Assembly: GCA_002256485.1 (NCBI GenBank)
Contig: NNSG01000001.1
Span: 190,017-254,016 of the forward strand
Source: Fidelibacterota bacterium 408169
Lineage (GTDB): Bacteria; Fidelibacterota; Marinisomatia; Marinisomatales; TCS55
Reading direction: 5' to 3'
DNA length: 64,000 nucleotides
In this document: piece by piece, positions 31,284 through 41,357 of the stretch
Layout: each line of letters opens with the position of its first letter
Position numbering within the stretch: position 1 is the first letter of the stretch
Position numbers and translations under genes: made by a program
The notes under the pieces: generated by a model
Databases searched by the model: none
What the model was told of the DNA's origin: nothing
The model's input: the letters and a program-made list of their open reading frames with translations, nothing else

Positions 31284-31358
31284 CGGGGTGTAGCGCAGCC
31301 CGGTTAGCGCGCGTCGTTCGGGACGACGAGGTCGAAGGTTCAAATCCTTTCACCCCGA
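31284..31358 (+). tRNA. tRNA-Pro(CGG)
   Basis: 75 nt: acceptor CGGGGTG/CACCCCG, D arm GCGCAGCCCGGTTAGCGC, anticodon stem CGTCG/CGACG with loop TTCGGGA (CGG), T arm GAAGGTTCAAATCCTTT. CCA is not encoded. It is intact and is followed after 3 bp by a GIY-YIG gene and then by a rearranged copy of its own 3' half. Confidence 0.95.
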
Positions 31359-31361
31359 CAT

Positions 31362-31610
31362 ATGTTTCATATGTATATATTGAAAAGTGAGAAGAATGAT
31401 AAATACTATATTGGACACACAAACGATATACATCGAAGACTTGAAGAGCATAATTCTAGACATACTAAATCAACAAGAGCAGGAATCCCTTGGAAGATTG
31501 TTTTTGTAGAAGAGTATAAAACGAAGCATGAAGCAATAATAAGAGAAAATAAGATCAAGTCAATGAAAAGTAAAAAATTTATTAAGGAACTCATTAATGG
31601 TGTGAATTAG
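31362..31610 (+). CDS. Small GIY-YIG nuclease (UPF0213/YhbQ-like)
   Basis: 82 residues, a complete stand-alone GIY-YIG domain: MYILKS, KYYIGHTNDIHRRLEEHN with Tyr16 and Arg25/Arg26, and the catalytic Glu62 in IRENKIKSM. All residues expected for nuclease activity are present. It begins 3 bp after tRNA-Pro(CGG), and its stop codon is formed by the TTAG that opens the rearranged tRNA copy. Stand-alone members of this family are common in Bacteroidota-like genomes but have no settled function. The tight placement between a tRNA and its partial duplicate suggests a selfish or homing-type element (inference). Confidence 0.9.
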   Translation: MFHMYILKSEKNDKYYIGHTNDIHRRLEEHNSRHTKSTRAGIPWKIVFVEEYKTKHEAIIRENKIKSMKSKKFIKELINGVN

Positions 31611-31670
31611 CGCGTCCCGACGAGTCGGGAAGGCCGAAGGTTCTCCCGATACATCGGGATCACCCCGACA
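31607..31670 (+). repeat. Rearranged 3' half copy of tRNA-Pro(CGG) carrying two 16-bp palindromes
   Basis: Order: TTAGCGCG (copy of 31304-31311), palindrome TCCCGACGAGTCGGGA (31615-31630) where the anticodon arm should be, AGGCCGAAGGTTC (31631-31643, tRNA variable/T arm with one change), palindrome TCCCGATACATCGGGA (31644-31659) in place of the T loop, then TCACCCCGACA (31660-31670), identical to 31350-31360. Both palindromes are perfect 7-bp inverted repeats with 2-nt centres. Confidence 0.92.
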
Positions 31671-40996: not shown

Positions 40997-41073
40997 TGGT
41001 ACGCCCGACAGGATTTGAACCTGTGACCTCTTGCTCCGGAGGCAAGCGCTCTATCCAGCTGAGCTACGGGCGC
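40997..41073 (-). tRNA. tRNA-Arg(CCG)
   Basis: Minus strand, 77 nt with encoded CCA (40997-40999). Acceptor GCGCCCG/CGGGCGT (G1-U72 wobble), D arm GCTCAGCTGGATAGAGC, anticodon stem CTTGC/GCAAG with loop CTCCGGA (CCG), T arm ACAGGTTCAAATCCTGT. It is the only tRNA in the window with an encoded CCA. Its 5' end is the first unit of a 70-bp tandem array. Confidence 0.95.
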
Positions 41074-41357
41074 ATTAAAATTTTCAAATATCGACGTCCG
41101 TAGCGAAGCTGCCTGTCCCGATTTATCGGGAAGCTACGGGCGCATTAAAATTTTCAAATATCGACGTCCGTAGCGAAGCTGCCTGTCCCGATTTATCGGG
41201 AAGCTACGGGCGCATTAAAATTTTCAAATATCGACGTCCGTAGCGAAGCTGCCTGTCCCGATTTATCGGGAAGCTACGGGCGCATTTTAATCTTTCAAAT
41301 ATCGTTGTCCGTAGCAAAGCTGCCTGTCCGACTTTTGGCGGAAGCTACGGGCGCATT
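41062..41357. repeat. 70-bp tandem array built from the tRNA-Arg 5' end and a palindrome
   Basis: AGCTACGGGCGCATT recurs at 41062, 41132, 41202, 41272 and 41343 (periods 70, 70, 70, 71). Units 1-3 are identical; unit 4 is diverged. Each unit holds the first 12 nt of tRNA-Arg(CCG), an AT-rich spacer, CGTCCGTAGC (an inverted, near-identical copy of the tRNA start GCTACGGGCG), and the palindrome TCCCGATTTATCGGGA. Unit 4 has a related TCCGACTTTTGGCGGA instead. Confidence 0.95.

Follow-up and report, generated by a model that had tools for sequence, protein, structure and literature searches.

The window, a stretch of 64,000 nucleotides of contig NNSG01000001.1 from Fidelibacterota bacterium 408169, contains an intact tRNA-Pro(CGG) gene (31284..31359, + strand; ARAGORN, with 64.3 bits against Rfam RF00005), followed on the same strand by a stand-alone GIY-YIG nuclease gene of 82 amino acids (31362..31610; Pfam PF01541, E=4e-16) and a copy of the tRNA-Pro 3' half that begins at about tRNA base 21 and extends to the 3' end (31607..31669). 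The gap between the tRNA and the nuclease gene measures 2 bp, not the 3 bp given in the original prediction, which was right that the tRNA copy supplies the stop codon of the nuclease: the TAG lies inside TTAGCGCG, where the 3' copy begins. Two palindromes, also read on the + strand, interrupt the copy. The first, TCCCGACGAGTCGGGA (31615..31630), replaces exactly the whole anticodon arm (bases 29-45), as had been described; it is preceded by base 28 and followed by variable-loop bases. The second, TCCCGATACATCGGGA (31644..31659), was thought to take the place of the T loop, but replaces a different part of the T arm, covering the end of the T loop and the 3' strand of the T stem, with base 58 joined to base 67. 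The flanking arms, said to be preserved to the last base, are preserved bar one (AGGCCG in the copy, AGGTCG in the intact tRNA).

A second decorated tRNA of the window lies at 41 kb on the - strand. Here an intact tRNA-Arg(CCG) (40997..41073; ARAGORN) adjoins three tandem 70-bp units without a nuclease gene (41074..41283), each a 5' part of tRNA-Arg into which a TCCCGATAAATCGGGA hairpin has been inserted after tRNA base 12; a fourth, degenerate copy of the unit was recognized by inspection (41284..41354). This array is a non-autonomous 5' form of the arrangement. The further TCCCGA-type palindromes of the window, at 41116, 41186 and 41256, all lie within these partial tRNA copies.

Across the genome of the window (2.47 Mb, 46 tRNAs), we found 20 palindromes of the form TCCCGA-N(0-14)-TCGGGA, against 5 for the reversed control pattern. 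Fifteen of the 20 are located at tRNA genes, nearly all of them visibly within partial tRNA copies, where about 0.4 would be expected by area (500 bp on either side of the 46 tRNAs, or about 1.9% of the genome); the arrangement is thus not the product of chance. The genome has 10 GIY-YIG matches, and six small GIY-YIG genes are found downstream of, and on the same strand as, tRNA-Val(CAC), tRNA-Pro(CGG), tRNA-Ser(GCT), tRNA-Ser(CGA), tRNA-Leu(CAG) and tRNA-Met(CAT), the Leu-linked gene having an internal stop. At a separate locus (L004; G000:C47, locus positions 1330-1980), a gene for a four-helix-bundle protein (S23/IVP-like) is split by a GIY-YIG gene with its halves on both sides, which may be an element of this kind that targets a protein gene.

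The protein encoded in the window has the motifs, the catalytic Tyr/Arg/Glu and the fold of the GIY-YIG superfamily, with the catalytic residues Y5, Y16, G18, R26 and E62 all present. Among 120 tRNA-linked nucleases, Y5, Y16, G18 and E62 are invariant and R26 is retained in 115, and dN/dS between close pairs is mostly 0.05-0.3; together, the low dN/dS and the invariant catalytic residues indicate that the nuclease is being maintained. An AlphaFold model (pLDDT 86.8) has UPF0213, SLX1 and I-TevI as its nearest solved folds, and by sequence its closest characterised relative in the PDB is again SLX1, an endonuclease that is structure-specific. The protein consists of the catalytic domain only, which makes the reading of one specific tRNA hard to account for.

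Searching GTDB contigs with the window protein alone, we obtained 11 homologues from Ignavibacteria, Bacteroidota and Patescibacteria, every one of which adjoins a tRNA or a hairpin-bearing tRNA half. As an unbiased set, a PF01541 search of 41 related genomes yielded 72 readable stand-alone domains, of which 47 have a same-strand tRNA nearby (up to 500 bp upstream or 300 bp downstream), and the remaining 25 are mostly either truncated by contig ends or members of a longer, distinct subfamily. In the controls, 0 of 8 UvrC genes and 1 of 30 Y1 transposase (Y1_Tnp) genes lie by a same-strand tRNA. Over the whole phylum, the nuclease type is present in 108 of 245 genomes (E<=1e-12), the compared genomes being mostly metagenome assemblies. 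The expectation that such genes would be found by tRNAs with marked copies is therefore borne out in the protein search and in the unbiased set alike, and neither homologues at unrelated sites nor a lack of enrichment of tRNA copies beside them was what we observed.

Several variants were seen among these loci. The longer GIY-YIG subfamily (about 97 amino acids) lies away from tRNAs at nine loci, one of which (L012, in G000) has the dispersed repeats GCGATCTCC...CGCGATGACA on its flanks. A mirror-image form, in which the nuclease gene is upstream of the intact tRNA, occurs at 11 loci; in one of them, L044, the nuclease gene comes after a hairpin-bearing 5' half. In G063 (C1:2679679-2681991), the nuclease gene is present four times at an exact spacing of 692 bp, a tandem amplification like the one driven by SegB in phage T6. 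Three Ser-tRNA elements (L007, L008 and L098) have arrays of short CCAACCTGC-type repeats between the CCA end of the tRNA and the nuclease gene.

On a tree of the 120 tRNA-linked nucleases, the amino acid of the linked tRNA changes 26 times, compared with a mean of 75.9 and a minimum of 69 when labels are shuffled. For 89 of the 120, the nearest relative from another taxonomic family is at a tRNA for the same amino acid, where 18 would be expected (maximum 37 in 1000 shuffles). Single branches of this tree are unsure because the alignment has few columns; the label statistics are independent of any one branch. Across families and phyla, the members of a nuclease clade stay with a single tRNA species, and loci of the same isotype may have differing gene neighbourhoods: tRNA-Pro lies by leuS in the window and by another gene at L036, L039 and L045. 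The position of the hairpin is likewise specific for the isotype, being the anticodon arm in Pro and Val, only its 5' part in Asn, the T arm in Gly and Asp and the T loop in Leu, and it is usually equal in the 5' and 3' halves within one locus. Hairpin stems fall into four classes (CCCGA, CCCGC, CCGGC and CCTGC) that change 6 times on the nuclease tree, against a mean of 16.5 for within-taxon shuffles (minimum 11 in 1000). As hairpin classes follow the nuclease tree, the hairpins must travel with the element and are not a host-wide repeat.

Halves of tRNAs also occur without a nuclease gene, and the element is seen in 5'-only, 3'-only and nuclease-less forms as well. At L031 (G000:C34:187264-187560), the acceptor region, D arm and anticodon arm of a tRNA-Asp 5' half without a nuclease gene together contain at least four hairpin-like inserts. 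What recurs is a GIY-YIG gene at the end of a tRNA, with one or two tRNA halves split by a palindrome at an isotype-specific position, and the Pro arrangement of the window is one case of this widespread element.

That the unit is mobile, as originally proposed, is supported by comparison of empty and occupied sites. The tRNA-Pro locus downstream of a DedA gene is occupied in G000, G001 and G029, decayed in G053, and empty in G005 (where DedA is 95% identical), G009, G013 and many others; in G039, G016 and G048 only the hairpin-bearing 3' end is present, without the nuclease. Empty and occupied sites were also found for the tRNA-Val and tRNA-Asn loci. Like homing elements, then, these units occupy a defined site in a conserved gene, are present in some relatives and absent from others, and have a clade-specific target.

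The tRNA-Pro copy in the window is so nearly identical to the intact tRNA that replacement of one by the other cannot be demonstrated there. In the same genome, at the tRNA-Val(CAC) locus (L005), the acceptor strands of the outermost halves, GGGCGAT and ATCGCCC, pair with each other, and the working tRNA-Val between them has the acceptor strands GGGCGCT and AGCGCCC. An intact tRNA-Val of the type GGGCGAT...ATCGCCC is found at the same place in eight of the relatives' genomes read, including G001, in which the TonB-type neighbour is kept. Compared with the native genes in G006 and G009, the halves have 1 mismatch in 43 bases; compared with the working tRNA, they have 9 in 43. A similar pattern is seen in another family, f29, at a locus with a HIT-protein gene and tRNA-Asn: the native TCCGGAG...CTCCGGA gene is intact in G221, G219 and G211, whereas in G214 it is split at the hairpin, with a TCCGGCG...CGCCGGA tRNA instead. 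These halves have 2 of 65 mismatches to the relatives' native gene and 14 of 65 to the intact tRNA, and the foreign-type tRNA-Asn is the only full-length match found in G213 and G214. Both outer halves are clearly unlike the intact tRNA at these two loci only, and at both they are halves of the native gene accompanied by a different working tRNA. The claim that the functional tRNA is restored and a marked copy left behind therefore holds for tRNA-Val and tRNA-Asn, two loci only, and the replacement at this pair is the core of the case.

Given these observations, we consider it probable, at roughly 0.75, that the arrangement is a small homing-type mobile element that has a tRNA gene as its target and carries its own replacement tRNA. 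Under such a mechanism, the nuclease would cut the tRNA gene, or possibly a hairpin-bearing end of the element, and recombination would copy the element into the break, as in homing. The native gene would be split at the cut and the tRNA of the element would assume its function, amounting to a natural form of cleave-and-rescue. Later recombination between the tRNA repeats could remove parts of the element, giving the 3'-only form of the window or the 5'-only form of tRNA-Arg at 41 kb.

One version of events differs in what is cut, and we regard it as possible, though with odds clearly below even. It holds that the nuclease cuts the palindromes and not the intact tRNA, that the palindromes are the ends of the element, where cutting frees or recombines the unit, and that the unit reaches the same tRNA species solely through the homology of the attached tRNA halves. 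This would account for the survival of the intact tRNA, and it is consistent with the tracking of nuclease clade by hairpin class, with the presence of one hairpin class at matching positions in both the 5' half and the 3' half of a locus, and with the structure-specific activity of SLX1, the nearest characterised homologue. The anticodon arm of the intact tRNA-Pro is identical between occupied and empty genomes, which counts against cutting of the target and means that a recoded, cut-resistant replacement tRNA, as a general account of self-immunity, is not supported for tRNA-Pro. However, the co-variation of hairpin and nuclease would be expected from linked inheritance alone, and SegB, a GIY-YIG enzyme of phage T6, is reported to cut inside tRNA genes (PMC13096335).

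Ordinary slippage or unequal crossing-over could also produce tRNA copies, with the nuclease genes as passengers that tolerate such spots, and tandem arrays of tRNA parts without a nuclease do exist (41074-41283 in the window, and L127). We think this very unlikely, as it leaves the isotype-specific nuclease clades, the clade-specific hairpins, the exact arm boundaries of the palindromes and the foreign replacement tRNAs without explanation. An action of the tRNA-like copy as RNA, for example as a tRNA decoy or as a signal for processing where the nuclease mRNA ends, would fit the exchange of tRNA arms for other stems with the stem-loops kept, but is about as improbable: some halves have no nuclease gene beside them or lie upstream of the tRNA, and we rejected tRNA mimicry at the RNA level since the 3' halves, having no 5' acceptor strand and in many cases no T loop, cannot fold as a tRNA. 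A group I intron or another Rfam family was likewise rejected, as Rfam shows tRNA alone. Least probable of all is an origin of the palindromes as general dispersed repeats of a REP-like type, spread by RAYT/Y1 enzymes and surviving only in dispensable tRNA copies, for while Y1 transposases and palindromic repeats are present in these genomes, the Y1 genes have different flanking palindromes of their own, the TCCCGA type is concentrated at tRNAs (15 of 20) and the hairpin class follows the GIY-YIG clade; we rejected a REP/RAYT origin of the hairpins on the first of these grounds. RAYT-type Y1 transposases were catalogued in the same genomes (L146-L175), many with their own flanking palindromes.

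Returning to the homing-type reading, we put forward tentatively, at a little less than even odds, its broadest form: a natural, phylum-wide cleave-and-rescue system in which nucleases, each tied to one tRNA species and a cognate hairpin, would break native tRNA genes, install a replacement and seed hairpins into the dead halves, so that the nuclease would move a class of palindromic repeats not described before. A full-text search of the open-licence literature found no earlier account of GIY-YIG elements that are linked to bacterial tRNAs and have tRNA halves with hairpins. Genes for tRNAs are essential and highly conserved. If elements of this kind break them time and again and provide a replacement, they would be nature's equivalent of the engineered cleave-and-rescue drives. 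Such elements would further account for the replacement of tRNA genes between lineages and for many small, unexplained GIY-YIG genes by tRNAs, and would offer compact nuclease/hairpin pairs with built-in target specificity.

Among known systems, a close likeness is to the mORFs of fungal mitochondria (Allomyces atp6; Glomus atp6, atp9, cox2 and nad3), in which the 3' part of the target gene has been exchanged for a foreign one with a homing endonuclease gene behind it, and the native 3' part, displaced downstream, is nearer to relatives in sequence than the working copy is (PMC3630166). The same order of a foreign replacement ahead of the nuclease gene and a native part behind it is found here at tRNA-Val (L005) and tRNA-Asn (L182) only. 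Unlike mORFs, which hit mitochondrial protein genes and swap the C-terminal part, the present elements are found at bacterial chromosomal tRNA genes, and at these two loci a whole foreign-type tRNA is flanked on either side by native halves, with hairpins where they join. SegB, one of the free-standing GIY-YIG homing endonucleases of T-even phages, resembles them in that its gene adjoins tRNA genes; it is reported to cut within tRNA genes and to drive tandem amplification of tRNA and nuclease (PMC13096335). Its reported motif, RAWTSGAAC, is on our reading the complement of the tRNA T loop. SegB differs in being a phage enzyme that is reported to have no preference for particular isotypes (PMC13096335), and it is not known to have tRNA halves, hairpins or a replacement tRNA. 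The window protein has a weak partial match, over residues 1-33, to a phage GIY-YIG homing endonuclease family; tblastn of 50,697 phage records gave no significant match to it, and the search for phage and plasmid carriage found none on plasmids. With its different class of host gene and its hairpin ends, and with cleavage that is putative, the element is not assigned to the mORFs or to the SegB group.

Like REP/RAYT systems, the elements combine a mobility gene, here a nuclease gene, with flanking cognate palindromes and have orphan palindromes elsewhere, but the enzyme family is another one and the local RAYTs have other palindromes, placing them outside that class. Integrative elements that use the 3' end of a tRNA as attB also restore the tRNA and leave a 3' fragment; here, the fragments contain hairpins, 5' halves are present as well, and the 310-bp unit has no integrase gene, the GIY-YIG gene being its sole functional ORF. 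In synthetic Cleave-and-Rescue drives, an essential gene is broken by a nuclease and a functional copy of it comes with the element. Those drives are engineered, whereas the element of the window is natural and its cleavage step is putative.
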